Translations under genes and position numbers: made by a program
Notes under the pieces: generated by a model
The model's input: the letters and a program-made list of their open reading frames with translations, nothing else
What the model was told of the DNA's origin: nothing
Database searches by the model: none
IMG/VR virus record: IMGVR_UViG_3300019093_000078
Location: 1 to 20,622 of that record
Strand: one strand, 5' to 3'
Source of the DNA: a virus
DNA: 20,622 bases
In this document: piece after piece, positions 2,893 through 20,622 of the stretch
Numbering within the stretch: the first letter of the stretch is position 1
How the letters are laid out: each line of letters starts with the position of its first letter

Positions 2893-3645
2893 ATGCCAAG
2901 CACTGACGATATTGTAGGAGCAGTTGACAAATATGGTGGCCCGGCATTGGGTAATGCAGCCAGAAATCTGCAAAGTCTAGCTCGGGGAGCAGGTGCGTTG
3001 GCTAATAAATTTAGTAAAAAGCCCCCAATCGATGTCAATGTAAAAAGTGCAAACGGTGTTGTTAAGCCCAAGGATAACAGAGTTAAAGTTTTAGTTCCTG
3101 AAAATTATCTTCCAGAGCCTGTTGATCTCTATAATATAGGTGGAATAATTTTTCCTTATACTCCTCAAATAACTTTTGAAACCAATGCAGATTATCAATC
3201 ATTGGCTCCGGTACACAGTAATTATATTCAACATTTTTACAAGAACAGCAGTGTATCTGCAATCACTATAGTTGGAAAGTTTACAGTTCAAAATGATAGA
3301 GATGCACAAAATTTGTTGGCTACACACAGTTTGTTAAGAATTTTAACTAAAATGCGAACAGGTAATGATACCAATCCAGGGGCACCTCCCCCTGTGTGTA
3401 GATTACAGGCCTATGGTGATCAAATGTTGGATAATACTCCTATTGTTATTAAACAGTTTAGATTAGATCTGCCAGAAGGAGTTGATTATTATACTTTATA
3501 TAAAACTAATTCTACTCGTGCTGTGTCTGTTCCTGTGTCGTCGTTAGTTAATATTCTCTGTATACCAATTTACAGCAGACAAGAAATTAAAGATTTTTCT
3601 GTAGATACTTGGTTATCAGTAGGAAGAACTAGAGGATATCTATAA
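2893..3645 (+). CDS. Baseplate/tail structural protein, first gene of the late run
   Basis: A 250-aa protein that I place by context and resemblance among baseplate proteins found just upstream of gp53 in marine T4-like phages; I cannot assign a T4 number. The N-terminal 60 residues are rich in Gly, Ala and Lys and probably flexible. The body carries GGIIFPYTPQITFETNADYQ at residues 83-102, then PVHSNYIQHFYKNSSVSAITIVGKF (about 106-130) and PPPVCRLQAYGDQM (165-178). These are patterns I associate with beta-rich tail or baseplate subunits. It ends FSVDTWLSVGRTRGYL. The start is supported by AAGGAG five bases upstream and the late promoter. The stop TAA shares its last A with the next ATG, so it is coupled to gp53. 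Confidence 0.75.
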   Translation: MPSTDDIVGAVDKYGGPALGNAARNLQSLARGAGALANKFSKKPPIDVNVKSANGVVKPKDNRVKVLVPENYLPEPVDLYNIGGIIFPYTPQITFETNADYQSLAPVHSNYIQHFYKNSSVSAITIVGKFTVQNDRDAQNLLATHSLLRILTKMRTGNDTNPGAPPPVCRLQAYGDQMLDNTPIVIKQFRLDLPEGVDYYTLYKTNSTRAVSVPVSSLVNILCIPIYSRQEIKDFSVDTWLSVGRTRGYL

Positions 3646-3944
3646 TGGCTCTATATAAAGATAATAGTCCTTATGCTACCACAAGTTTTTCTAATGGGTA
3701 CCTAGACATTATAGATTTTAGAGATATACCTGCAAAAACAGATGATGTTTTGTATGAAGTAACCAAGCAATATGAAAATAGGCCAGATCTATTAGCTTAT
3801 GATCTCTATAGTGATGTAGGATTATGGTGGGTGTTCAGTGTGAGAAACAAGGACATTATTAAAGATCCTGTATTTGATCTAGTGGCAGGAATAAAAATTT
3901 ATTTGCCCACTGGCAATACCATACGAGCCGCATTGGGTATTTGA
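3645..3944 (+). CDS. 53: gp53-like baseplate wedge subunit
   Basis: A small 99-aa protein. Residues about 33-92 contain DDVLYEVTKQYENRPDLLAY, then DLYSDVGLWWVFSVRN, DPVFDLVAG and IKIYLPT. This is the compact core typical of short phage gp53/LysM-like wedge proteins: RPDLLAYDLYGD, then LWW, then a final I-Y-LP strand. T4 gp53 is about twice as long; short forms like this are usual outside T4 itself. The role would be to join inner wedge subunits in the baseplate. The ATG overlaps the previous TAA by one base and has AGAGGA eight bases upstream. The stop TGA is one base from the next ATG. Confidence 0.78.
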   Translation: MALYKDNSPYATTSFSNGYLDIIDFRDIPAKTDDVLYEVTKQYENRPDLLAYDLYSDVGLWWVFSVRNKDIIKDPVFDLVAGIKIYLPTGNTIRAALGI

Positions 3945-6132: not shown

Positions 6133-7665
6133 ATGAGCGGCGATTTTATCGACACAAGGTCGAGATCTAAATTAGGTAGTCCAGGCCCTTTTGTGGCCAT
6201 TATAACTAACAATGTGGATCCTACCTACATGGGTAGATTAGAAGTGGCTGTAATTAAAGGTCTATATCCTGATACAACCAAACAATCAAACACCTATACC
6301 GTAAAATATCTCAACCCATTTTATGGAGTAACTTCAGTAAACTTTCAAGGAAATACTCCTGCTAATCCTGCAGATGTACAAAAAAGTTATGGCATGTGGA
6401 TGGTTCCGCCTGATGTTGGTACTAGAGTATTAGTTATATTTGTTGACGGCGATCCCAATCAAGGATTTTGGATGGGATCTGTGATGGACAATTATCAAAA
6501 TCACATGGTACCCGGTATCGCGGCCAGTGATACAGCATTGCTTTCTGCTGCTCAAGAAAAAGAATATGATACCAAATATCTACCTGTTGCAGAATTTTTA
6601 AAAAACAATGAAACTGACAAAAATAATTTAGACGTTGGTAAATTTGGTAAACCCGTACATCCATTTGCAGACAAGTTATTAAAGCAAGGATTATTAAAAG
6701 ATAGAGTACGCGGAGTTACATCCAGTTCTGCCAGGCGAGAATCACCTAGTTCAGTATTTGGCATTAGTACACCGGGCCCGCTTGATAAAAATGGAAAGAA
6801 GGGAAATCTAGGCTATACAAATAATTATCAAGCACCTGTTGATAGATTGGGTGGCAGTACATTTGTCATGGACGACGGTGATAAAAACGGTGAAAATGAG
6901 TTGATAAGAATTAGAACTCGTACCGGGCATCAAATACTCATGCACAATACCAAAGATTTGATTTACATAGCAAATGGTCAAGGAACCGCATGGATAGAAC
7001 TAACCGGCGATGGCAAGATAGATATCTATGCTAGAGATTCGGTCAGTATTCGATCGGAGGCAGATTTTAATTTTCATGCTGACCGTGACATCAATATTGA
7101 AGCGGGACGCAATATTAATTTTAGAGCACAGGGGAATTTCAGTATCGAAGCAGAAAAAAATTTCAGTCTCGTATCCGGCCAGGATGGTAAAATTCATGTC
7201 AAACACAATTTAGATCAAACAGTAGAACAATACTATAAAGTTACTGCTCACAGCAATTATGATTTAAAGGTTGGCGGTACCGCAAGACAAACTGCTGCCA
7301 AGGATTTTAATATTTCGTCCGGAGCAAATAATAATTTTTCAGCCAACGCCAATACCAATATTTCCACTCAGGGTACTCATTATGAATCTGCTAAGGAAAT
7401 ACATATGAATGGACCAGTTGCTGCCACTGCTGCCCCGGCAGAAAAAGCAGAAATTCCTGAACCTATGACTCGTTGGAGTTTACCAAATACAGATCCTATT
7501 AAATTCCCCTGGAAAGGTAAACAATATAAGGCTACTCCTATAGAAAGTATCATGCAGCGTATGCCTACACACGAGCCCTGGGAACAGCACGAGGATCTTG
7601 GAAGAGAAAAATTCAGCTCTATTGCAACTGATGCGGTGGCAGGAAACGCTAATAAAAAGGTCTAA
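6133..7665 (+). CDS. 5: gp5-like baseplate spike/hub protein without visible lysozyme domain
   Basis: Central needle protein of the baseplate. Residues about 16-128 are the OB-fold domain: GPFVAIITNNVDPTYMGRLEV, then YGMWMVPPDVGTRVLVIFVD and GDPNQGFWMGSVMDNYQNHM. Residues 129-243 are a linker. Residues 244-425 form a beta-helix needle with regular eight-residue repeats. The tail carries MPTHEPWEQHED (477-488), which I recall from marine T4-like gp5 proteins. In T4 a lysozyme domain sits between OB fold and needle; here that interval is only about 115 residues, lacks the T4-lysozyme motifs and reads as Lys/Ser/Asn-rich linker. The OB fold would contact the hub protein encoded just upstream. 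An AAGGA (6116-6120) lies 12 bases before the ATG. Confidence 0.88.
   Translation: MSGDFIDTRSRSKLGSPGPFVAIITNNVDPTYMGRLEVAVIKGLYPDTTKQSNTYTVKYLNPFYGVTSVNFQGNTPANPADVQKSYGMWMVPPDVGTRVLVIFVDGDPNQGFWMGSVMDNYQNHMVPGIAASDTALLSAAQEKEYDTKYLPVAEFLKNNETDKNNLDVGKFGKPVHPFADKLLKQGLLKDRVRGVTSSSARRESPSSVFGISTPGPLDKNGKKGNLGYTNNYQAPVDRLGGSTFVMDDGDKNGENELIRIRTRTGHQILMHNTKDLIYIANGQGTAWIELTGDGKIDIYARDSVSIRSEADFNFHADRDINIEAGRNINFRAQGNFSIEAEKNFSLVSGQDGKIHVKHNLDQTVEQYYKVTAHSNYDLKVGGTARQTAAKDFNISSGANNNFSANANTNISTQGTHYESAKEIHMNGPVAATAAPAEKAEIPEPMTRWSLPNTDPIKFPWKGKQYKATPIESIMQRMPTHEPWEQHEDLGREKFSSIATDAVAGNANKKV
7012..7179 (+). repeat. Seven in-frame octapeptide repeats of the gp5 beta-helix needle
   Basis: Codons 294-349 of gp5 encode seven consecutive eight-residue units: GKIDIYAR, DSVSIRSE, ADFNFHAD, RDINIEAG, RNINFRAQ, GNFSIEAE, KNFSLVSG. 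Positions three and five of each unit are hydrophobic and position four is polar, the spacing expected of an intertwined triple-stranded beta-helix such as the T4 gp5 C-terminal domain. The DNA of the units is diverged, so this is an old protein repeat and not a recent duplication. Confidence 0.8.
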
Positions 7666-7676: not shown

Positions 7677-8111
7677 ATGGTATATAAATCCAAAGTAATC
7701 ACTACAACAGAATCTGTTTATCAACAGGCTGCTAAATCGAATCATTTTTATAAAGGGTTCAGTACAGTTAATTCTAATAATTCTAATAATCTCTATGATT
7801 TAGAATTGATCAAGCAGGATATTATCAACAATTTCAATACCAAAAAAGGTGAAAGAGTAATGAATCCTGAATTTGGTAGTATTATTTGGGATTTGCTAAT
7901 GGAACCTTTAACAGACGGAACTACAGCATTGTTAAGAGAAGATATCAACAAAATCTGTACAGCAGATCCTAGGGTAGTTCCGACGCAAATGGATATAACA
8001 GAATTTACTCAAGGTTATTTGTTGGAAATTACACTGGAAACAGTTGATACCGATCAAAGCATCAATATGAAACTGACTTTTAATCAACAGACCGGGCTTA
8101 CTTTCCAATAA
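7677..8111 (+). CDS. 25: gp25-like baseplate wedge subunit
   Basis: A 144-aa wedge protein of the sheath-initiator family (GPW/gp25). The block at residues 24-72 reads FYKGFSTVN, then LELIKQDIINNFNTKKGERV and MNPEFGSIIWDLL. The KGER-x-MNPEFG motif is diagnostic of gp25 and related contractile-system proteins (T4: RKGSRPFDPEFG). Residues 73-144 give the DPRV and beta-sheet part of the fold. It starts polymerisation of the tail sheath on the baseplate. The first 23 residues have no counterpart that I recognise, and no other in-frame start codon lies between the ATG and the conserved block. No ribosome site is at usable distance (AAAAGG is 16 bases away). Eleven bases separate it from gp5. Confidence 0.88.
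   Translation: MVYKSKVITTTESVYQQAAKSNHFYKGFSTVNSNNSNNLYDLELIKQDIINNFNTKKGERVMNPEFGSIIWDLLMEPLTDGTTALLREDINKICTADPRVVPTQMDITEFTQGYLLEITLETVDTDQSINMKLTFNQQTGLTFQ
7771..7788 (+). repeat. Two tandem copies of ATTCTAATA in gp25
   Basis: Two perfect 9-base copies (7771-7779, 7780-7788) encode a Ser/Asn-rich stretch (NSNNSNN) between the N-terminal FYKGFST motif and the conserved helix of gp25. It could vary in copy number by slippage without shifting the frame. Confidence 0.5.
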
Positions 8112-8158: not shown

Positions 8159-11100
8159 ATGATTCCATCAACTAATACTAAACTACTGGTCGCCGAAGAT
8201 TGGAAAAAGATTTATCAATCTTTTCGTAATGCCGATTTTAAAAGTTATGATTTTGAAACATTAAGACGCACTATGATTCAATATCTTCAGGAAAACTATC
8301 CTGAAGATTTCAACGACTATATTACCAGCAGTGAATATATTGCTTTGATAGATGTAATTGCTTATTTAGGGCAGAATTTAAGTTTTAGAATAGATTTAAA
8401 TGCTAGAGAAAATTTTTTAGAAACTGCACAGCGCAGAGACAGCATTTTAAGACTGGCTCAACTGGTCAGTTACATACCCACTAGAAATATCCCTGCATCA
8501 GGTTTTTTAAAAATATCATCGATAACAACCACTGATAGTGTAGTTGATGGATCGGGCAATAATCTAGCCAACACCACAATTTCTTGGAATGACAGTACCA
8601 ACTCCAATTGGTATCAACAATTTATTACTGTATTAAATTCTGCTATTCCTGGCAGTTTTGTATTTGGTAAGCCTTATGATAGAAATACTATTGATGGAAT
8701 TTTAACTGAACAATATAAAATCTCCAGTACCAATACCAATGTTCCTGTATATGGTTTCTTAAAAACCATTAACGGAACCGCAATGAATTTTGAAATAGTC
8801 CCGGCTACATTTTCTGGAGAGACCTACATATATGAGGAGTCTCCTAAACCTGCTAGTTCTTTTAGTTTAATTTATCGCAATGATAATCAGGGCAATAACA
8901 GTGCCAATACAGGATTTTTTGTTTATTTTAAACAAGGAACTTTAAATTTATCTTCGTTCAGTGTAACCAATCCAGTTTCAAATGAAATAATAGGCATCGA
9001 TGCTAAAGGCATTAACAATACAGATATTTGGTTATGGCAGTTGGATGGCAATGGGAATTTTTCTAAACTATGGTCTAGGGTGCCGGATGTTGTAGGTAAT
9101 AATGTTATCTACAACAGTATTTCTAAGGATGAAAGAAATATCTACAGTGTTACATCAAGAGACCAGGATCAGGTCGATTTAAATTTTGCCGACGGAAGTT
9201 TTGGAAACTTGCCCAATGGACAGTTTAATTTATATTATAGACAAAGTAATGGTTTAACATATACCATTAAGCCCGATCAAATGGGCGGAGTTGTTGTTGA
9301 AATACCTTATAAAAATAAATCTGGTCAAAATAATACATTAATTTTGACCATGAGCCTTTTGTACACAGTCAGTAATGCTGCAGGTACTGAAAGCAATACC
9401 AGTATTCAAAGCAAAGCACCGCAGGCCTATTATACTCAAAATCGTATGGTAACAGCCGAGGATTATAATATTAAACCATTGACTTTGGGCAGCGATATAT
9501 TAAAAGTTAAAAGCGTTAATAGAATCAGCAGCGGTCTAAGCAAATATTTTGATCTCAGTGATGTTAGTGGAAAATACAGTAAGACCAATATTTTTGCCGC
9601 AGATGGATTGATCTATAAAGACAGCAGTGAGCAAAGTTTTGATTTTTCTTTTGTAAATAAAAATCAAATTTTAGCCACTATCAAAGAAAAATTAGAACCC
9701 ATAGTAGCATCTAGTGCCATGCGATCTTTTTATTTGGATCAATGGCCCAGGGTTAATATACAAGATCTATCATTATCGTGGAATGTACCGGTGCTAGGTC
9801 AGCCTAGAGGATATTTTTCGAGTTCGACTAGACCCGAAAGTGTGGGCAGTTATACATCTTCATTATTACAATATGTATCTAATGGTGCGTTAGTTAAGTT
9901 TATTCCTACTTCAGGAAAAAAATTCTCCGCAGCAGGAAAGTTAGTATCATTGACTAATGTTTCAGCAGTAGATTATCTATGGAGAGGAATTTCTCAGGTC
10001 ATTGCTGATGGATCAAATCAAAATCTCGGAGTATTAGACAATGGCACAGGCCCAATTATTTTAAACAATTATATTGACGATAAGTCTATTCCTGTTGAAA
10101 TAATTCCTAAATTTATTAATTCATTTACCAGTAGTTTTGAAAGTCAACTGGTAGATCTTTGTGCAAACAAACGCAATTTTGGATTGACATTTTTAAAAGA
10201 TACTAGAGTATGGGCAATTATACTGGATACCAATTTAGATTTAAATAGTCCGTTTAGTCTTGATCTTCAAGGAAATACAGAAAATACCAGTAGAGATTCT
10301 AGTTGGATAATTGCATTCTCTTGGCAGGGCAATGGTTATAAAGTTAGATATAGATTAACAAATTACATCTTTGAAAGTGAAAAAGAAACAGCATTTTATA
10401 TAGATAATGATTCGATAAATTATGATTTTACCAGTAACACAGTAATTAAGGATCAAATTAAAGTATTATCTCTTAATAGTTCTCTTGCTACCAATACGTC
10501 CTTGGATAAGGAGTATCAGTGGCAAATTGACAGTTCGGTTATCGAAGCTGATGGATATGTGGAGCCCAAAAAAGTTAAAGTAAGTTTTTACGATCAAACC
10601 AATAGTGGACAAATTGCTGATCCGGATACCTTTAACAATATTGTTTTGCCTTTGGCTATATCTACCGAGACTGGATTTCGAACTAATTTTATATATTTTA
10701 AAAAATTATCGGATGGTATACGTTATCAGTTAGTAAGTGATACATTTTTTTATGCTTATCCTACTCCTAATGACGTTCCTTTAAATCAAGCAGCCGACGG
10801 TGATTTATATTATTTTTATGATCCTGAGTATAATGTAATAAAACATTATTCAGCTGATTTAGCAGACACAGCAGATCCGTGGGTTTATGAACCTGATTAT
10901 TTTGCTTATTCGGGAAGATCAGGATTAAAATTTCAATATATTCACAATAGCGGAGAAGAGCGTAGAATTGATCCTAGTAAGAGTAATATTATTGATGTTT
11001 ATCTGCTAACAGCATCTTATGATACAGCATATAGATCATGGCTATTAACTAGAACAGGTACCGAACCTTTATCTCCAACTAGCCAAAGTCTTAATCAAAA

Positions 11101-11554
11101 CTTTGGTGGCTCTTTAGATTTAGTTAAAACTATAAGTGATGAAATTATATTTCAACCTGTTAAGTATAAGGTTTTATTTGGGGATTTGGCAGATATAAAT
11201 CTTCAGGCTACATTTAAGGCAGTTAAAAATTCTTCTAGAACTACCAGTGATAATGAAATCAAAACTAAAATATTACTGGCTATTGAAGATTTTTTTAGTT
11301 TAGAAAATTGGGATTTTGGTCAAAGTTTTTATTTCAGCGAGCTGTCTACTTACGTAATGAATATATTAACTCCTGATATCACAAATTTTGTTATTGTTCC
11401 TAGGTCTAATAATTTTGGTAGTTTATATGAAGTTGCTTGTTTAAGAAATGAAATATTTATAAATGGCGCAACAGCTAATGATATTGAAGTGATCACAGCA
11501 ATCACAGCTAGCCAGTTAAAGACTGGTGTTATTACTACAAATATTTCAAGTTGA
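8159..11554 (+). CDS. 6: gp6-like baseplate wedge subunit, enlarged
   Basis: Core wedge protein that dimerises around the hub in T4-like baseplates. Residues about 57-118 (SSEYIALIDVIAYLGQNLSF, then RIDLNARENFLETAQRRDSI and YIPTRNIPASG) are the conserved gp6/baseplate J-like N-terminal helices. About 335-450 contain VDLNFADGSFGNLPNG and YYTQNRMVTAEDYNIKPLTL, the J-like core. Residues 1014-1125 hold the C-terminal block (KTKILLAIEDFFSLENWDFG, then SFYFSELSTYVMNILTPDIT and the final NDIEVITAITASQL). At 1131 aa it is much longer than T4 gp6 (about 660). The surplus is mainly in about 450-1010, which includes RRIDPSKSNIIDVYLLTASY. The protein ends two bases before the next ATG. Confidence 0.9.
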   Translation: MIPSTNTKLLVAEDWKKIYQSFRNADFKSYDFETLRRTMIQYLQENYPEDFNDYITSSEYIALIDVIAYLGQNLSFRIDLNARENFLETAQRRDSILRLAQLVSYIPTRNIPASGFLKISSITTTDSVVDGSGNNLANTTISWNDSTNSNWYQQFITVLNSAIPGSFVFGKPYDRNTIDGILTEQYKISSTNTNVPVYGFLKTINGTAMNFEIVPATFSGETYIYEESPKPASSFSLIYRNDNQGNNSANTGFFVYFKQGTLNLSSFSVTNPVSNEIIGIDAKGINNTDIWLWQLDGNGNFSKLWSRVPDVVGNNVIYNSISKDERNIYSVTSRDQDQVDLNFADGSFGNLPNGQFNLYYRQSNGLTYTIKPDQMGGVVVEIPYKNKSGQNNTLILTMSLLYTVSNAAGTESNTSIQSKAPQAYYTQNRMVTAEDYNIKPLTLGSDILKVKSVNRISSGLSKYFDLSDVSGKYSKTNIFAADGLIYKDSSEQSFDFSFVNKNQILATIKEKLEPIVASSAMRSFYLDQWPRVNIQDLSLSWNVPVLGQPRGYFSSSTRPESVGSYTSSLLQYVSNGALVKFIPTSGKKFSAAGKLVSLTNVSAVDYLWRGISQVIADGSNQNLGVLDNGTGPIILNNYIDDKSIPVEIIPKFINSFTSSFESQLVDLCANKRNFGLTFLKDTRVWAIILDTNLDLNSPFSLDLQGNTENTSRDSSWIIAFSWQGNGYKVRYRLTNYIFESEKETAFYIDNDSINYDFTSNTVIKDQIKVLSLNSSLATNTSLDKEYQWQIDSSVIEADGYVEPKKVKVSFYDQTNSGQIADPDTFNNIVLPLAISTETGFRTNFIYFKKLSDGIRYQLVSDTFFYAYPTPNDVPLNQAADGDLYYFYDPEYNVIKHYSADLADTADPWVYEPDYFAYSGRSGLKFQYIHNSGEERRIDPSKSNIIDVYLLTASYDTAYRSWLLTRTGTEPLSPTSQSLNQNFGGSLDLVKTISDEIIFQPVKYKVLFGDLADINLQATFKAVKNSSRTTSDNEIKTKILLAIEDFFSLENWDFGQSFYFSELSTYVMNILTPDITNFVIVPRSNNFGSLYEVACLRNEIFINGATANDIEVITAITASQLKTGVITTNISS

Positions 11555-11556
11555 AT

Positions 11557-14500
11557 ATGTCTAATAAAAAAATTAATTCTGTTAACCTACTACCAGAATC
11601 TTTAAGAACAGATAAAAATTCTAAATTTTTAGCAAGTACTATTGATCAGTTAATCAATCCTGCTGATCTAGAAAGAATTGATGGATATATTGGGTCTACT
11701 ATTACCCCTAATTATGTATCTACTAGCGACATTTATATTTCTGAAACATCATCTTTGAGAAGGGATTACCAATTAGAACCATCTTTGATAGTCAATGACA
11801 GTCTCGGTAATATTAACGATGTTATAGGGTTTGATGATTTGATTAATGAAATTTCTCTCCAAGGAGGGAATGTTAATAATTTTGATAGATTATTTAGGTC
11901 GTCGTTTTATTCTTATGATCCTTATATTGATTGGGATAAGTTTGTAAACTATCAAAATTATTATTGGTTGGTTAATGGCCCGAATATTTTAACAATATAT
12001 AGGAACGAATTAGATATTGAACAGGATATTATAGGTAAAACTTCTTATACATATGAATTTACCCTTGGGGGAGAATCAAAATCTATTTCGTTATTCAACG
12101 GCATGTTGATTCGATTTCAGGGAAATGTTTTTCCTAGTTTCTATCAGGACCAAGATTTTTTTGTAGAAGGTGTTGGAACAGAAATTAAATTGATCAGTTA
12201 CACAGCATTATCTTCTTCGGGAAATCTTTCCAATTTATATATTGATCATTTTGACGCCAATCCTTTTGACAGCTATCCATTTGATGGAGATAAAAAATTA
12301 CCTATCAATCCTGAATATGTCACAATTAATAGGGCCAGTAAAGATTTAAATGCGTGGTCTAGATACAATCGTTGGGTACACAAAAATGTTATTCAACGCA
12401 TGGCCGATTTATCGGGCGATCAAGCAGTTTATCCTGCCGATCAGAGAGCCCGTAGACCTATTATAGAATTTCGAGAGGATTTAAAATTATATAATTTTGG
12501 AACAACCGGAATATCTAATGTTGATCTAATTGATACCGGCACAGTAGATGCATTTAACACAGTCGAAGGATCTGCAGGGTATTATGTTGATCGTGTTTTG
12601 TTACAGCAAGGAAATACAGTTATATTTGCAGCTGACAAAGATTCTTCTGTACGTAATAAAATATATCGAGTAAATTTTAAGAATATCAATAAAAAAATTA
12701 GATTGGTATTGGAAGAAATTGTTTCTGCTGTTGCAGGATCGGTTACCAGCATCAATCTTGGTTCGACACATGCAGGAACAAGCTGGTGGTACGATGGTAA
12801 TTTTTGGCAATATGCTCAACAGAGAACATCATTAAATCAGCCGCCGTTATTTGATCTTTTTGATAATCAAGGTAGAAGTTATAGCGATAAAGTCTATTAT
12901 AAAACTAATTTTTCTGGAAATAAAATATTTGGCTATGATGTAGGGACCATCCTTGACCCAATATTGAGAATTAAATTAAAATATCGAAGCAGTTACGCAG
13001 TGGGTAATTATTTGTTTAAAAACTATTTCATGACAGATAGTTTTTCAAATTCCTTGGACAGTCAAAATACAGAAATAATCTCTACCGGTAGGACTTATTT
13101 TAAGTTTGGTAATTCTTACGTTAATGTATGGAAACTCACCAATCCTTATCCTATACCATTGTTATATTCGCCTATATCGGGTAATAGTTATTATGAACCA
13201 CCGTTGGGATTGACTAATAATCCATTAAATGGTGCAATTTCAAATCTAACTTTAAGCGAAGTAAATGATCATGTATTGAATAATAAACGACGATTGATAT
13301 CTAATAAAAATCCCCTGGCATTTGCACAGTTTTTTATCGGAAAAAAAGAACACAATATTGTTAATGCATTGTTCGTGGCTGCCAATCAATACAATGAATT
13401 TAAATTATCATTTTTGAAAAAAATTGAACAACTGTCAATTCAATTTGATCCGGTGGCAGCGGTTGATCAGGCTCTAAAAGAAATTAATGCAGATAAAGAT
13501 GTGTTAAGTCCTTATTATCTTTCTGACATGGTAGCCTATGGTACAAATAAAATTACAAGAAAATGGACAGTATCAGACAGTAGAAATAAAATATATCCTA
13601 TAACTAGCGATTATGATCCGCATGTATTATCTATGCGTAGCGTTTTAGTTTATGTTAATGGAAATCAGTTACTTCGTGATATTGATTATGTGTTTGAAGT
13701 GTTAGATTCGTCTGTTAATTTCTTAATTGATCTAGTTGTCGGGGATAAAATAGTTATCGATGATTACACAGATACACGCGGATCATTTATTCCATCGACA
13801 CCTAGTAAATTAGGCATATATTACAAATATGCACCTAGAATATTTTTAGATGATACCTATCTAAATCATGTTAATGTAATTCAAGGGCATGATGGCAGTA
13901 TCATGCTGGCATATAATGATTATAGAGATGATATAATTTTAGAGTTAGAAAAAAGAATTTTCAATAATATCAAAGCAGAATATAAAAAAGATCTATTTGA
14001 TATTAATTCTGTAATACCGGGTGCATTTAGATCTACGGACTATTCTGTTACAGATATTAATAACATAGCACATGGCGAATTTAATAATTGGGCAGGTATC
14101 TACGGAATAGATGCTACTACTAATAATGCGTTTGATGAAAATAATTCCTGGACCTGGAATTATTCTTCTTCGTATAATAATAATTTACGAATTAATCTGC
14201 AAGGCAGTTGGAGAGCAGTATATCTTTATTTCTACGGCACAGATAGACCACACACTCATCCGTGGGAAATGTTAGGGATTTCAATTAAGCCCACATGGTG
14301 GGATGATCTCTACGGTCCGTTTCCATATACAAGCGGAAATTTAATACTTTGGGAAGATATAGCAGCGGGTCGAATCAATGGTACTATTGATTCTCTATAT
14401 GCTCGTCCTGGATTATTAAATATTATTCCGGTTGACGAAAACGGAAATTTATTAAATCCAATGGATTTAATTGTTCAGTCTGGCAGTGTAACTCCTAGTA

Positions 14501-17500
14501 CAATTAGACAGCCGTGGAAATTTGGCGAATTAGGACCTGCTGAATTCAGTTGGAGACGAAGCAGTTATTGGCCGTTTGTAGTGCAGAAAATATTGGCATT
14601 AACCAAGCCTGCTGATTATGCAGCATTAATGTACGATCCTATTAGATTAACAAAAAATTTAACAGGACAATGGACATACGATAGTGATCATAAATTTTTA
14701 AATCCCAAATTGGTTAAAATACACGGTGATGGGGACAACTTAACCAGTGGATACAGTGTATATGTTGTCGAGGCAGGTGTACAGAGAAAAGGTGGTTACA
14801 TAGAACAATTAAAAACTGATCTTCAGTATGTCGATTATAAACTATTTTATAAAGTAGGTGGGTTCATCAGTAAAGATAAGATGCAAATTATTATTGATGC
14901 AATTGATCCTACCAGTACTAGCCCGGGTGCCATATTACCTCAGGAAGATTATCATCTAGTTTTAAACACCAGTAATCCAGTTAATTCATTTACTATGTCT
15001 GGTGTAATTATACAAAAGTCGAATGGAAAATTTATTATCAGAGGTTATGATAATCGTCGACCCTATTTTAGTGTTTATTCTCCTATTAGAAATGCAAACA
15101 CACCTACAATAACTGTAGGAGGTCGTAGCGAATCTTATGTATTATGGGAATCTAGTCAAACTAGAGGCAGTACAGGTCTAACTGATGCCGATTTAACTAC
15201 AGCAAATTCTGCGGTGTTTGGAACCTATTATCAACAAGGACAAATAGTTTCTTATCAAGATAGATATTATAGAGTTAAAGTTTCGCATAGAAGTACAGAT
15301 ACGTTTAATCCAAATTATTTTCAAATTCTTATTTCTTTGCCTATTATTGGCGGTGCTGTTGTTCAATCCTATGATAACTTTGATCAACAGGTAATTACTA
15401 TTCCTTATGGAACTGAATTTAATAGAATACAGGAAGTTTATGATATACTTGTAGGATATGGAGCATGGCTAGAAGACAACGGATTTATATTTGATCAGTT
15501 TAACGAAGATCTTCAATCTGTGTTGAACTGGGAATTTTCAGGTAAAGAATTTTTATATTGGACGACACAGAATTGGGCTGATAACAGTATAATTACACTA
15601 AGTCCATTTGCGGATCAAATTAAATTTACATCTGCAACCAGTGTGGTTGATAATTTGTTTGACACATTTAATAATTATCGATTGCTTCAAGTCAATGGTA
15701 AACCTCTAGATCAACAGTATATCAATGTAAATCGCACAGACAATATTTGTACAATTAATACACAAAATACCAGCCAAGGAATATATTTTGCAGTTTTAAA
15801 TTTAGTTCAGAAAGAACACGCAATGGTATTCAACAATACCACTATGTTCAATGACATTATCTATGATATAGAAACTGGATATCGCCAGCGTCGAATGAAG
15901 TTGTTAGGATTTAGAACAGCAGGGTGGAATGGAGATTATTTCAGTCCGGGATTTGTTTATGATCAAGCACAGGTTTCAGATTGGAAAACTTACACAGATT
16001 ATCGTTATGCAGATGTTGTAAAATTTAATGGAAATTATTATTCTGCTAATAAAAATATTCCCGGTTCTACTAAATTTGATTTTACAAAATGGACGCCTTT
16101 GAGATCTAAACCTTCTGCGGATCTTATCTCTAATTTTGATTATAGAATTAGTCAGTTTGAAGATTTTTACAGTTTAGATATTGATAATTTTGACAGTGCC
16201 CAACAACAGATGGCACAACATCTTACTGGTTATACACCTAGAGTATATCTAAATAATATTTTTACTAATCCAGTAAGTCAATATAAATTTTATCAAGGTT
16301 ATATAAAAGAAAAAGGAACACGAAATTCTATTAAAAAATTAGCTAAAGCCAGTATACATAATCATCAAGGCGAAATTGATTTTACAGAAGAATGGGCTTT
16401 TAGAATAGGACATTATGGTTCTTATGAAACTTTTAGAGAATTAGAGATTTCTCTTGTCGAAGGATCATTTATTGAAAATCCTCAGATCATAAATTTTGTT
16501 GATTCAATTTCTACAGTATCAAACAACTTGATTGTTTATAGTACCGCTAGTAATAGAGTAATTACACCTGTAAATTATTCAACTACTGAAACTTTTATTA
16601 CTATTAATAATTCGGATATATTTCAAATTAGTCCGGCCGGATATGCAAATATCAATGATGTTGATCACACTGCCTATGACCAAGATACATTATTGAATAT
16701 AAAAAACAACGGATCAATTTTACTTAACAATCAAGTTGTATGGGTAGCAAATAAACCCAATGGCGATTGGGGAATATATAGATATTCTTTATCTCGTTCA
16801 AGAATTCTTAGCGTGGTACTTAGTTCTAGTGAAGAAAATCAATTGATATTAACAAACAATATTGCTCATAATTTACAGATTGGTGATATTATTGCAATTG
16901 ATAGATTTGATACAAATATTGATGGAATTTATATTGTTAAATCAATAGTTTCCGAAACTAGTTTTAGTATAGAATTGTCAATCTCACCATTACCGACTCC
17001 AACCTCTTTTGGATTATTGTATAATTTTATGTCGGTTAGATACGAGGATTTTGACCAGTTACCTAGCGATAAAGAATTGCTGCGTTGGCCAGAAGATTCT
17101 CAAATATGGATTAACAACAACGGTTTGGAACAGTGGAATGTTTATAAAAAAATAAAAAATTATCAAACTTATTCCATGTTAGGGCCCGACGGCGTACCTA
17201 ATCAAAAGTTAGGATGGAGCGTTTCTAAAAATAAAAATTCAAATGTTTTTATGGTTGGCTCTCCGGGGTATGAAACGGCAATTGATGTTGGAGGAGTAAC
17301 TGTATATCAGGAAGTTCCGCATGGTGTAACAATAAAATTTAGATATCAAATAAACCGCGGATCTAATTTGTATCATGATTCTGAATCGGAGTTTGGTTAT
17401 TCTGTAGTTTATGACACAAGAGAATTTCATAATTCGGCAGGTCCTACTGGGTACGGATTGTTTATAGCAGGTGCCCCGGGAGCAGGAAATATAAGATCTT

Positions 17501-20500
17501 CAATGGCAGTCGGGTCAGTGAGGTATGCATCTCCGTCGGGTAATATATCAACTAACAACCAAGCAGGTCTAGTTAAAATCAGTAGTGTGGATCCTATCTC
17601 GCAGGAAGAAGTACCACAACGTATATTATTAAGTCCTTTTCCTAAAAGTTATGAAAGATTTGGTAGTAGTTTATATCTTCAGTCAAATTCGATTACCAAT
17701 AACAAAAAACTGTTGGTAGGAGCCCCGCACACAGTTGAAGTAGGGACAGGAACAGTTTATGTATATGAAATTTCAACCGGAACGGCAGCAGTAAATCTCT
17801 CACTAGTTAAAACTTTAAATACCTCTAGTATTAATAAAATTGGAGGACTGTGGGGTAATGCCATCAGTGGTTCCGATAATGCAGATATAGTAGCAGTTGG
17901 TGCGCCGGGATATTTCACCAATACAGGTCTGGTTTGTATTTTCACAGGAACAGATTTAACATATTCTCAGACTATAGTTTCGCCTTTTGGAAGATATGGA
18001 CAATTCGGACATGCAGTTAAAGTTTCCGATGATGGAAATTATCTATTTGTTTCTGCACCTGAAACAAGAGAATTAGATCAATCCTATGGAAAGGTTGCTG
18101 TCTATACATTAACTAATAATCTATTTGTACTAGAAGATATTATTAATAATCCTCTATCCGGTTCAGGAATGCATTTTGGCCAGGCAATAGACATCAATCA
18201 AAAAAATGCCGAATTTTTGATTTCGGCAATAGGAACTAATAGAAATATTATTACAACATTTGATAAGAGTGAGTCGGTGTCGATCTTTGACGGAGATTCG
18301 ACAACATTTTATGATTCAGTCGATCAATCAGGTACTGTATATGTATATAATAGAAAAAATAATAAATTTAAATTAGCCGATGATCTTACTCCAGTTTGGC
18401 CATATACGGGTACCAATTTTGGTTATAGTTTGGCCATAAATGACAACAGCATTTATGTTGGTGCCCCGTGTTATTCTAACAGTGAAAGATCTGGCGCCCT
18501 TCATCAGTTTTACAAAAAAGACATTGCAGAAGAAAGTTGGAGTGTATCAAGGTCGCAGGCTCCTTTAGTTGATCTCGGTACTGTACATAAAATTGAATTA
18601 ATTGACACATTCAATGATGAAATCGTGGAATATCTAGATACCATTGATCCTTTAAAAGGAAAGATACCCGGTATCGTAGATCAAGACATCAAATATAAAT
18701 CTGCGTTTGATCCTGCAATTTATACTCAAGGAAATTCAGATATTGTAGTTGATCCAGAAATTAATTGGACCGATATACATGTGGGGGAATTATGGTGGGA
18801 TCTAAGTACAACAAAATACATTTGGTATGAGCAAGGGGATCTAGTTTATAGAAAAAATAATTGGGGTAAATTATTTCCTGGATCCAGCGTAGATGTTTAT
18901 GAATGGGTAGGAACTCCTTATTTGCCCAGCCAATGGAGTGAAATAGCCGATACCAGTGCAGGATTAACCATGGGCATAAGCGGACAGCCTAAACATCCCG
19001 ATGACAGTGTATTTTCTACTAGACAAATATATAATTCGGTTAATGACAGTTTTGAAAACTATTATTACTATTGGGTTAAAAATAAAACAACAATTCCAAA
19101 CACTAAAAATAGAAGAATAAGTGTCTATGAAGCCGCTAGTATAATCAACGATCCTTCTGCCTATGGAATAAAATATTCGGCTATCATAGATAAAGATGCA
19201 ATATTATTATTTAACGTAAGCGAAAATTTAGTAGACAATAGAATCCATCTCAATATCAATTCCGATGTAATTAATAATCCAATTCCTCGTCACACAGAAT
19301 GGTTGTTATTGCAAGAAGGGTCTGCAAATAGCAGACCTAATACCTTATTAGAAAAAAAATTAATTGACAGTTTATTAGGTCATGATAGCTCAGGTAATCC
19401 TGTTCCGGATCCTTTGTTGTCGTCAAGAGCAAAATATGGTATTGAAGTAAGACCTCGGCAAACTCTTTTTAAAGATAGATTAGAAGCACTGAGAAATATT
19501 GTAGAATTTACCAACAGTGTGTTGATTAAAAATCGTATCACAGGTAATTATAATTTTTCAAATCTAAAGAAAAAGGAGGAAATACCTGATTTTTACACTC
19601 GTGAATATGATCAAATTGTAGAAGACAATGATTCTCTATTGTCTATAGATTCAACTATTTTAAATCAAGCCAGTATTAGTTGTACCGTCGAGAATGGTAG
19701 AGTTGCAAGTGTTAATATTGTCAATCCTGGTTATGGATATAAGACAAGTCCTATAGTAATTGTTTCAAATCCTACAGTGAATATTTCAACAGAGATTGAT
19801 GAATTTGGACAGATTATTAATGTTAATATTGATAAACCCGGTGAAGGATTATACGAAATTCCGGTATTAGAAGTGCGACCTTATACCGTAATAGTTCGAG
19901 TTGACAGTGAAAATAATGGTAAATGGTCAAAATTTATCTATAGTCAAGCATCTAAAACATGGGTAAGATCACACACTCAAGAATACAATACCGAATTGTA
20001 TTGGGAATATCAAGATTGGGTTAGTGATTCGTATAATAAATTTTTAGATTACTCTTACACAATCAATGAAGTATATGAATTAAATTCATTAACAGATCTT
20101 CAATCCGGGGATTATGTTAAAATTCGCAATGGCGGTCAGGGGTATTACATAATAGTTAGAAAAACTGCCTCGGGAGAGACAGGCAGTTTTGATAACGATT
20201 TTGATCTTGTTTATTATGAAAATGGTACAATTCGCATATTAGATACTATTTGGAATCAAAAAAATAGCAAGTTAAACTATGATTATATAGATGGCTACGA
20301 TCAAACTCTATATGACCAAACTCCGGATTTAGAGTTGCAATATATTTTACTTGCGTTAAAAGATGATTTGTTCATTAACGAACTTAAAATAAATTGGAAT
20401 CTATTATTTTTTACTGCGGTAAAGTATGCCACAAGCGAACAAAAAATGCTGGATTGGGCTTTTAAAACTTCCTTCATAAATGTAACAAATTATGCCGGAG

Positions 20501-20622
20501 GACTAGATCAACGACCAGTTTATAAATTACAGAATGCTCAATACTTTGAAGATTACATAAAAGAAGTTAAACCGTATCATACCAAAATTAGAAGTTTCAC
20601 TGAGAACTACTCTGTATTAGAT
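11557..20622 (+). CDS. Giant virion structural protein in the gene 7 position (baseplate wedge type) with embedded beta-propeller; incomplete at right edge
   Basis: An open frame of 3022 codons without a stop that continues beyond the window. It follows gp6 as gp7 does in T4, but T4 gp7 is about 1030 aa. The start LLPESLRTDKNSKFLASTID (11-30) and the block WDKFVNYQNYYWLVNGPN (126-143) resemble the giant proteins next to gp6 in marine T4-like phages. Further blocks I take as conserved: GHDGSIMLAYNDYRDD near 777, RPHTHPWEMLGISIKPTWWD (897-916) and YGPFPYTSGNLILWED (919-934), YGTEFNRIQEVYDILVGYG near 1284, FDYRISQFEDFYSLDIDNFD near 1526, YGIEVRPRQTLFKDR near 2627, and DWAFKTSFINV with YIKEVKPYHTKIR at 2966-3012. 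Seven FG-GAP repeats occupy about 1875-2337, and a short tandem repeat lies at 2714-2773. The ATG is two bases after the gp6 stop with no clear ribosome site. Its base composition is AT-rich, as in its neighbours. Confidence 0.8.
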   Translation, partial: MSNKKINSVNLLPESLRTDKNSKFLASTIDQLINPADLERIDGYIGSTITPNYVSTSDIYISETSSLRRDYQLEPSLIVNDSLGNINDVIGFDDLINEISLQGGNVNNFDRLFRSSFYSYDPYIDWDKFVNYQNYYWLVNGPNILTIYRNELDIEQDIIGKTSYTYEFTLGGESKSISLFNGMLIRFQGNVFPSFYQDQDFFVEGVGTEIKLISYTALSSSGNLSNLYIDHFDANPFDSYPFDGDKKLPINPEYVTINRASKDLNAWSRYNRWVHKNVIQRMADLSGDQAVYPADQRARRPIIEFREDLKLYNFGTTGISNVDLIDTGTVDAFNTVEGSAGYYVDRVLLQQGNTVIFAADKDSSVRNKIYRVNFKNINKKIRLVLEEIVSAVAGSVTSINLGSTHAGTSWWYDGNFWQYAQQRTSLNQPPLFDLFDNQGRSYSDKVYYKTNFSGNKIFGYDVGTILDPILRIKLKYRSSYAVGNYLFKNYFMTDSFSNSLDSQNTEIISTGRTYFKFGNSYVNVWKLTNPYPIPLLYSPISGNSYYEPPLGLTNNPLNGAISNLTLSEVNDHVLNNKRRLISNKNPLAFAQFFIGKKEHNIVNALFVAANQYNEFKLSFLKKIEQLSIQFDPVAAVDQALKEINADKDVLSPYYLSDMVAYGTNKITRKWTVSDSRNKIYPITSDYDPHVLSMRSVLVYVNGNQLLRDIDYVFEVLDSSVNFLIDLVVGDKIVIDDYTDTRGSFIPSTPSKLGIYYKYAPRIFLDDTYLNHVNVIQGHDGSIMLAYNDYRDDIILELEKRIFNNIKAEYKKDLFDINSVIPGAFRSTDYSVTDINNIAHGEFNNWAGIYGIDATTNNAFDENNSWTWNYSSSYNNNLRINLQGSWRAVYLYFYGTDRPHTHPWEMLGISIKPTWWDDLYGPFPYTSGNLILWEDIAAGRINGTIDSLYARPGLLNIIPVDENGNLLNPMDLIVQSGSVTPSTIRQPWKFGELGPAEFSWRRSSYWPFVVQKILALTKPADYAALMYDPIRLTKNLTGQWTYDSDHKFLNPKLVKIHGDGDNLTSGYSVYVVEAGVQRKGGYIEQLKTDLQYVDYKLFYKVGGFISKDKMQIIIDAIDPTSTSPGAILPQEDYHLVLNTSNPVNSFTMSGVIIQKSNGKFIIRGYDNRRPYFSVYSPIRNANTPTITVGGRSESYVLWESSQTRGSTGLTDADLTTANSAVFGTYYQQGQIVSYQDRYYRVKVSHRSTDTFNPNYFQILISLPIIGGAVVQSYDNFDQQVITIPYGTEFNRIQEVYDILVGYGAWLEDNGFIFDQFNEDLQSVLNWEFSGKEFLYWTTQNWADNSIITLSPFADQIKFTSATSVVDNLFDTFNNYRLLQVNGKPLDQQYINVNRTDNICTINTQNTSQGIYFAVLNLVQKEHAMVFNNTTMFNDIIYDIETGYRQRRMKLLGFRTAGWNGDYFSPGFVYDQAQVSDWKTYTDYRYADVVKFNGNYYSANKNIPGSTKFDFTKWTPLRSKPSADLISNFDYRISQFEDFYSLDIDNFDSAQQQMAQHLTGYTPRVYLNNIFTNPVSQYKFYQGYIKEKGTRNSIKKLAKASIHNHQGEIDFTEEWAFRIGHYGSYETFRELEISLVEGSFIENPQIINFVDSISTVSNNLIVYSTASNRVITPVNYSTTETFITINNSDIFQISPAGYANINDVDHTAYDQDTLLNIKNNGSILLNNQVVWVANKPNGDWGIYRYSLSRSRILSVVLSSSEENQLILTNNIAHNLQIGDIIAIDRFDTNIDGIYIVKSIVSETSFSIELSISPLPTPTSFGLLYNFMSVRYEDFDQLPSDKELLRWPEDSQIWINNNGLEQWNVYKKIKNYQTYSMLGPDGVPNQKLGWSVSKNKNSNVFMVGSPGYETAIDVGGVTVYQEVPHGVTIKFRYQINRGSNLYHDSESEFGYSVVYDTREFHNSAGPTGYGLFIAGAPGAGNIRSSMAVGSVRYASPSGNISTNNQAGLVKISSVDPISQEEVPQRILLSPFPKSYERFGSSLYLQSNSITNNKKLLVGAPHTVEVGTGTVYVYEISTGTAAVNLSLVKTLNTSSINKIGGLWGNAISGSDNADIVAVGAPGYFTNTGLVCIFTGTDLTYSQTIVSPFGRYGQFGHAVKVSDDGNYLFVSAPETRELDQSYGKVAVYTLTNNLFVLEDIINNPLSGSGMHFGQAIDINQKNAEFLISAIGTNRNIITTFDKSESVSIFDGDSTTFYDSVDQSGTVYVYNRKNNKFKLADDLTPVWPYTGTNFGYSLAINDNSIYVGAPCYSNSERSGALHQFYKKDIAEESWSVSRSQAPLVDLGTVHKIELIDTFNDEIVEYLDTIDPLKGKIPGIVDQDIKYKSAFDPAIYTQGNSDIVVDPEINWTDIHVGELWWDLSTTKYIWYEQGDLVYRKNNWGKLFPGSSVDVYEWVGTPYLPSQWSEIADTSAGLTMGISGQPKHPDDSVFSTRQIYNSVNDSFENYYYYWVKNKTTIPNTKNRRISVYEAASIINDPSAYGIKYSAIIDKDAILLFNVSENLVDNRIHLNINSDVINNPIPRHTEWLLLQEGSANSRPNTLLEKKLIDSLLGHDSSGNPVPDPLLSSRAKYGIEVRPRQTLFKDRLEALRNIVEFTNSVLIKNRITGNYNFSNLKKKEEIPDFYTREYDQIVEDNDSLLSIDSTILNQASISCTVENGRVASVNIVNPGYGYKTSPIVIVSNPTVNISTEIDEFGQIINVNIDKPGEGLYEIPVLEVRPYTVIVRVDSENNGKWSKFIYSQASKTWVRSHTQEYNTELYWEYQDWVSDSYNKFLDYSYTINEVYELNSLTDLQSGDYVKIRNGGQGYYIIVRKTASGETGSFDNDFDLVYYENGTIRILDTIWNQKNSKLNYDYIDGYDQTLYDQTPDLELQYILLALKDDLFINELKINWNLLFFTAVKYATSEQKMLDWAFKTSFINVTNYAGGLDQRPVYKLQNAQYFEDYIKEVKPYHTKIRSFTENYSVLD
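17179..18567 (+). other. Seven FG-GAP repeats: predicted seven-bladed beta-propeller domain
   Basis: Within the giant protein, seven successive units each start with an FG- or LG-like motif and continue about 15-30 residues later with a GAP-like turn. By residue: LGWSV 1885/GSPG 1901; FGYSV 1946/GAPG 1972; FGSSL 2035/GAP 2055; LWGNA 2098/GAPG 2115; FGHAV 2150/SAP 2166; FGQAI 2207/SAI 2223; FGYSL 2288/GAP 2302. Most end in a G-x-V-x-V-Y strand (GTVYVYE, GKVAVYT, GTVYVYN). This is the integrin-alpha type propeller pattern, and seven is the complete number. Canonical DxDxDG calcium loops are not obvious. By inference it is a surface-exposed binding module. Confidence 0.75.
19696..19875 (+). repeat. 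Two tandem 23-residue repeats in the giant protein
   Basis: Residues 2714-2736 (GRVASVNIVNPGYGY then KTSPIVIV) and 2751-2773 (GQIINVNIDKPGEGL then YEIPVLEV) align over their full length: G-x-(V/I)-x-x-V-x-(I)-x-x-PG-x-G-x-x-x-x-P-(I/V)-x-(V/I)-x. Their spacing is 37 residues. The pattern resembles short beta-repeats of tail-fibre and adhesin proteins. It is diverged at the DNA level. Confidence 0.7.
20161..20190 (+). other. Perfect 10-bp inverted repeat with terminator-like shape inside the giant gene
   Basis: AAAACTGCCT is followed by a 10-base loop and its exact complement AGGCAGTTTT. The stem ends in a T-run on the plus strand and, by symmetry, on the minus strand, as a bidirectional intrinsic terminator would. 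It lies in coding sequence (KTASGETGSF region), so function is doubtful; it may pause or attenuate polymerase or be chance. Confidence 0.4.

Follow-up and report, generated by a model that had tools for sequence, protein, structure and literature searches.

A seven-unit FG-GAP domain in a giant protein

The window analyzed here is the whole stretch of 20,622 nucleotides of the virus record IMGVR_UViG_3300019093_000078, and its end is occupied by a single open frame on the forward strand (as are all the features of the window described below) that runs from 11551 to 20622, comprises 3024 codons and is still open where the window ends. The frame starts with a TTG at 11551; its first ATG, at 11557, lies just past the stop of the gp6-like gene and is the likelier start, and the residues of the encoded protein, referred to here as the giant, are counted from the TTG. 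The giant is listed as a virion structural protein (11557..20622) on the basis of its homologues in jumbo phages and of the phrog_10938 virion structural protein profile, which matches across its scaffold with an E value of 0 and 1074 bits. The homologues are 3.3 to 5.3 thousand amino acids (aa) long, and the phage from which the giant comes is uncultured and probably very large. Within the giant, at approximately residues 1868-2336 (17152..18558), an AlphaFold2 model, matches in the PDB and a family profile place a seven-bladed FG-GAP beta-propeller of the integrin-alpha type, and we have hardly any doubt about this fold or about its place in a giant encoded after gp6.

The original prediction described seven FG-GAP units in a row at 17179-18567, which corresponds to residues 1877-2339 of the giant, and the conserved glycines, the shuffled controls and the unit profiles all bear this out. 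Each unit consists of an FG, a GAP-like turn and a G-x-V-x-V-Y strand, and the [F/L/W]G starts of the seven successive units are at residues 1887, 1948, 2037, 2101, 2152, 2209 and 2290. The unit profile recognizes blade 1 (17206..17310, LGW..GSP..GGVTVY), blade 3 (17656..17778, FGS..GAP..GTVYVY), blade 4 (17848..17952, WGN..GAP..GLVCIF) and blade 5 (18001..18117, FGH..SAP..GKVAVY). Blade 6 (18172..18357, FGQ..SAIG..GTVYVY) is also recognized, with SAIG in place of GAP and a long 2-3 loop. Blade 2 (17389..17592, FGY..GAP..GLVKIS) has a 1-2 loop of 14 residues and a 2-3 loop of 30 residues, which make the spacing of the units uneven. Blade 7 (18415..18522, FGY..GAP..GALHQF) is recognized by the unit profile as well. 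The units had also been described as being in register with GAP turns, and this holds for most blades, the SAIG of blade 6 and the long loops of blade 2 being the departures.

In an alignment of 42 homologues the FG glycine of each of the seven units is either invariant or conserved in at least 90% of the sequences, and among 78 distinct whole propellers all seven glycines are kept in 69, six in 7 and five in 2; the number of unit matches per giant of the set never exceeds seven. The pattern [FYWLIM]G-x13-22-AP gives 6 overlapping matches in a stretch of 491 aa, for which 2000 shuffles average 0.06 matches and never exceed 2; the remaining 2533 residues of the giant contain none. When a profile was built without the blade under examination, using the six others as they occur in other proteins, blades 1, 3, 4, 5, 6 and 7 scored better than all 500 shuffles; blade 2 alone is not significant by this unit profile, with 15 of 500 shuffles equally good, because of its long insert. 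Chance or artefact as the origin of the seven units is ruled out by the shuffles, the profiles and 102 relatives.

A search with FG-GAP profiles had been proposed as a check of the prediction, and it supports it through the Pfam family FG-GAP_2 (PF14312), which matches 40 of the 42 homologues at an E value of 0.01. In the window protein the Pfam FG-GAP profile has no match, and FG-GAP_2 finds a single repeat, blade 7, with 17.6 bits for the whole protein, below the gathering cut-off of 23; on the excised domain it reaches 33.3 bits and passes that cut-off. PF18698 (HisK_sensor) and similar weak Pfam matches were judged to be chance overlaps with blade 1.

The AlphaFold2 model was computed from residues 1855-2345 with a 42-sequence alignment including 41 environmental homologues, and it has a mean predicted local distance difference test score (pLDDT) of 90.2 and a predicted template modelling score of 0.90. 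DSSP assigns to it two N-terminal strands followed by seven groups of four strands, so that the model supports a closed ring of seven four-stranded blades. In a Foldseek search of the PDB, all of the 50 best matches were alpha chains of integrin entries, with E values from 1e-16. VIA-align superposes the model on integrin alpha chains with Z scores of 34.7 to 37.3, a root-mean-square deviation of 2.9 to 4.7 and 358 to 394 aligned residues at about 18% identity, and the integrin heads align over model residues 15-490. The propeller family profile, which uses sequence alone, matches integrin alpha-4 at E 8e-21; with this family profile the integrins displaced the Pizza and PknD (NHL) propellers that were the PDB matches of the single sequence. 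The complete integrin-alpha-type propeller of the original prediction is thus upheld by the structural model, by the fold and profile searches and by conservation, and its boundaries need adjustment: the modelled domain starts slightly earlier, at about residue 1868 (17152), and ends at about residue 2336 (18558).

The domain shares with the integrin alpha propeller its seven FG-GAP/Cage units of four strands (Z 34-37, E 8e-21), but it is located inside a virion protein, has only about 18% identity and lacks the integrin legs. All integrins have a calcium-binding motif in blades 5-7 (PMC3192720), carried by 1-2 and 3-4 loops at the end opposite the ligand face, which is formed by the 4-1 and 2-3 loops (PMC3192720, together with general knowledge). 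The DxDxDG calcium motif is absent from the window domain, blades 5-7 included, and occurs in 1 of the 42 homologues, in one place. The Cage spacing of integrins (aromatic-aromatic-G-aromatic-x13-20-P-x2-15-G; PMC3192720) is not found in every blade of the window domain: blade 2 is too long (27), blade 6 has no proline and several blades have no aromatic residue after the G. Because the calcium motif is absent and the Cage spacing fails, we classify the domain as an FG-GAP_2-type propeller with the integrin fold and not as an integrin domain in the narrow sense.

Gene neighborhood of the giant

The genes upstream of the giant encode, in order, a baseplate wedge protein that is gp53-like by position (3645..3944; phrog_7145 baseplate wedge subunit, E 3.6e-24), a structural protein of 727 aa, a gp5-like hub or spike protein (6133..7665; PF04717, E 6e-6; phrog_13211, E 1.6e-49), a gp25-like baseplate wedge protein (7677..8111; PF04965, E 3e-9; phrog_43) and a gp6-like baseplate wedge protein (8159..11554; phrog_10646, E 1.5e-286; phrog_219). 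The giant has the same surroundings in the cultured phages PA5oct, Atu_ph07, SCTP-2, XaC1, Vibrio 2.275.O, RaK2, Phosso and CBB; some of these records do not label gp25 and gp6 by name, and SCTP-2 has a single very long open reading frame upstream. The phrog_10938 giants of RaK2, CBB and PA5oct belong to the same protein family and follow the same gp25-gp6-giant order as the window, but these cultured members, unlike the window giant, have no propeller in the corresponding slot. The CBB homologue, CBB_236, was found in virions by mass spectrometry with 21 peptides (PMC5259590), and the PA5oct homologue, EST35_0128, carries an annotation from electrospray ionization tandem mass spectrometry as a virion component.

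In phage T4 the place directly after gene 6 is taken by gene 7, so that the giant shares with gp7 its position in a gp53-gp5-gp25-gp6 cluster; it is, however, at least 3 times longer and has no detectable sequence similarity to gp7 (hhalign probability 0.2% with both halves of the giant against a single gp7 sequence). The N-terminal 530 residues of the giant (11551-13140) were modelled with a pLDDT of 83 and have no confident match in the PDB; a siphophage baseplate protein (best VIA Z 5.4) was discarded as too weak a match to use. With neither similarity to gp7 nor a confident PDB match for these residues, the wedge identity of the giant is one by position. The earlier description of a giant baseplate protein in the wedge position is therefore sustained by the gp25-gp6-giant order and by the virion homologues, and its identity as the wedge subunit gp7 is not. 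Two blocks make up the conserved scaffold: block A, residues 740-1650 (13768..16500), is common to the cultured jumbo phages, and block B, residues 2336-2660 (18556..19530), follows directly after the propeller and is common to all relatives.

The propeller slot in relatives

Propeller-only queries, by tblastn of annotated phages and in a first pattern scan of IMG/VR, gave no match; relatives were found with the flanking block. With the block after the propeller as query, at least 590 related places were found in IMG/VR. The prediction had looked to related marine T4-like phages for comparison; the relatives turned out to be jumbo phages and uncultured contigs, with no particular tie to marine T4-like phages. 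In a maximum-likelihood scaffold tree of 125 thinned sequences all 102 propeller carriers are on one branch (support 100/95), which implies a single gain of the propeller, or a single loss by the others. The propeller is present in every readable slot of this uncultured clade (102/102). L153 was missed by the whole-domain profile and has units recognizable by eye and by the unit profile. The only other row inside the clade, L019, is near-identical to a carrier and belongs to a contig that begins past the slot; the propeller label on the tree requires two changes, one of which is owed to L019. As a side observation, five marine contigs with this giant (L098-L102) come from metagenome-assembled genomes binned as Rickettsiales, Pelagibacter, Porticoccaceae, Betaproteobacteria and Pacearchaeota; these are probably phage contigs in the bins, which makes the bins possible hints of hosts.

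No FG-GAP units were found in the slot in the eight cultured giants. The RaK2-type slot extends about 100-140 aa beyond the shared blocks, that of PA5oct is about 330 aa and that of SCTP-2 roughly 430-520 aa, and in Atu_ph07 and Phosso the slot is taken up by a different sequence of about 1500 aa that contains G-x-G-Y repeats. By eye the SCTP-2 slot seemed to include a LamG-like domain, for which neither Pfam nor the PDB gave support. In a giant without propeller (L103:6848-10030) E1_FCCH matches the slot at E 1e-12, and the slot also contains repeats of the G-x-G-Y type that resemble the ones in Atu_ph07 and Phosso. When the propeller profile was searched against the eight whole cultured genomes there was no match anywhere in six of them; Atu_ph07 has one FG-GAP protein of 393 aa, and Phosso has two proteins of 394 aa and two other very large proteins with many FG-GAP units. 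Six large uncultured records (150-320 kb) gave a profile match at one place alone, the propeller of their giant.

Variation and the putative role of the propeller

No other part of the giant's 3024 residues is as poorly conserved as the propeller (identity 0.27-0.39), which has a median pairwise identity of 30%, compared with 55-57% for blocks A and B. The pairwise identities of propeller and scaffold are correlated (Spearman 0.80, against 0.85 between the two scaffold blocks), which indicates joint inheritance, and together with the tree this rules out a swapped cassette inside the clade; the swapping among relatives that the prediction had considered was not found there. This lowest identity of the giant, and the tolerance for slots of very different length, would suit a spacer or clamp that fills or rigidifies the space between the wedge arms and whose loops vary freely with nothing depending on them. 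We consider such a spacer improbable, since an identity as low as 30% has left the ring and its seven core glycines intact, a sign of selection for a complete ring, and since the length changes are unevenly spread among the loops. The mean standard deviation of loop length is 5.3 for the 2-3 loops, 3.3 for the 3-4 loops, 2.1 for the 4-1 loops and 0.9 for the 1-2 loops. Inserts of 20 residues or more are mostly in 2-3 and 4-1 loops and never in 1-2 loops, with the 3-4 loop of blade 3 as the main exception, and their counts are not counts of independent events because relatives share them.

Our proposal, to which we give about even chances, is that the propeller is a putative built-in head that binds the host surface. 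The gene of the giant comes immediately after that of gp6, a wedge protein of a T4-type baseplate, and the closed FG-GAP propeller occupies a single slot of the giant. The propeller would be tied to the wedge by the scaffold of the giant, exposed outside the baseplate and repeated with the wedges, and it would contact a host-surface glycan or protein through the face of its 4-1 and 2-3 loops. The evidence counted for this head is that the propeller is the fastest-changing stretch, that most loop variation falls on the ligand face and that the slot is optional, along with the fold, the virion location of homologues and the CBM_5_12-like stretches in the slot of some clade members; a change faster than that of the scaffold is what would be expected of a receptor-binding module. 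The original prediction had inferred a receptor- or glycan-binding head from the position of the module, and these observations are consistent with it, binding itself being what we infer.

Several points weigh against the head. The calcium loops, and hence the integrin-type stabilization, are missing. The assignment of top and bottom faces is borrowed by analogy from the integrin fold, and the 3-4 loops on what would be the opposite face also vary, mostly in blade 3. Fast evolution and loop variation would suit, too, a domain that simply tolerates change or one that keeps pace with a virion partner as that partner changes. Exchange is common among receptor-binding modules, whereas this propeller was never replaced inside the clade (102/102). 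Such strict retention would be expected of a structural partner, and the main rival to the host-binding head is that the propeller is a docking platform within the virion, whose variable face holds tail fibers or peripheral baseplate proteins and evolves with its partner; on either explanation one would expect the ring to be conserved and to vary on a single face. Propellers are, as general knowledge has it, mostly platforms for protein-protein contacts, and the cultured relatives that have no propeller have other tail equipment, such as whiskers and branched fibers (PMC5259590, PMC3622015). However, the gp25-gp6-giant order is found in the cultured relatives even though they have no propeller there, and we regard docking as possible but the less probable explanation.

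Stretches resembling CBM_5_12 occur both in the giant and in some slots. In the window protein there is a weak one at residues 1224-1251 (15220..15303) with an E value of 4e-4, under the Pfam cut-off; within the propeller slot they are found in L095 (7433-10045, E 5e-9) and L017 (7979-10051, E 1e-4). These stretches, and the fact that FG-GAP proteins are often extracellular adhesins (PMC9003413), would accord with a weak adhesin that attaches to mucus, exopolysaccharide or particles and not to the receptor itself; with the CBM_5_12 scores of the window protein below the cut-off, we think this very improbable. Two relatives, L012 (7241-8938) and L018, have about 500-700 extra residues within the ring, following its first two blades; the insert begins with a weak CBM_5_12-like stretch and may be analogous to the I domain that is inserted in integrins. 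A stronger form of the host-binding proposal, in which the propeller would be the main receptor-binding head of the clade in place of separate short tail fibers and the L012 and L018 inserts would parallel the I domain, seems unlikely to us.

If the propeller is a head that binds the host, a large uncultured clade would recognize its hosts via a fixed, fast-evolving baseplate domain, with a fold that serves cell adhesion in animals, working beside or instead of exchangeable fibers, and host range could then be deduced from a single conserved slot in metagenomic contigs. Should its role be confined to docking, the propeller still records one event of gain or loss, that of a 470-residue module in the giant after gp6. 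Literature searches combining FG-GAP with phage, baseplate, tail or receptor-binding, with mostly open-access coverage that leaves novelty unproven, returned no such propeller in a phage baseplate, nor is one mentioned in a jumbo-phage review from 2026.

The domain of the giant has its repeat family and its ring in common with the FG-GAP_2 (PF14312) propellers that occur in bacteria, giant viruses and phages. The phage precedents include AUZ95081 of Atu_ph07, H6WG31 of cyanophage S-TIM5 and an FG-GAP repeat protein of Vibrio phage nt-1; these annotated propellers are separate genes, mostly of about 400 aa, whereas the ring in the window is an insert in the giant after gp6. The 'hemagglutinin protein' of Atu_ph07 (393 aa; L118:5019-6200) is a stand-alone FG-GAP_2 propeller adjoining a MazG-like gene. 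In the Sinorhizobium jumbo phage Phosso, two FG-GAP proteins of about 394 aa likewise adjoin a MazG-like gene, and two huge unannotated proteins of 3162 and about 3690 aa have many FG-GAP units; the FG-GAP loci of this phage are at L117:4339-24979 (Phosso 48338-68978) and L119:3125-5533.

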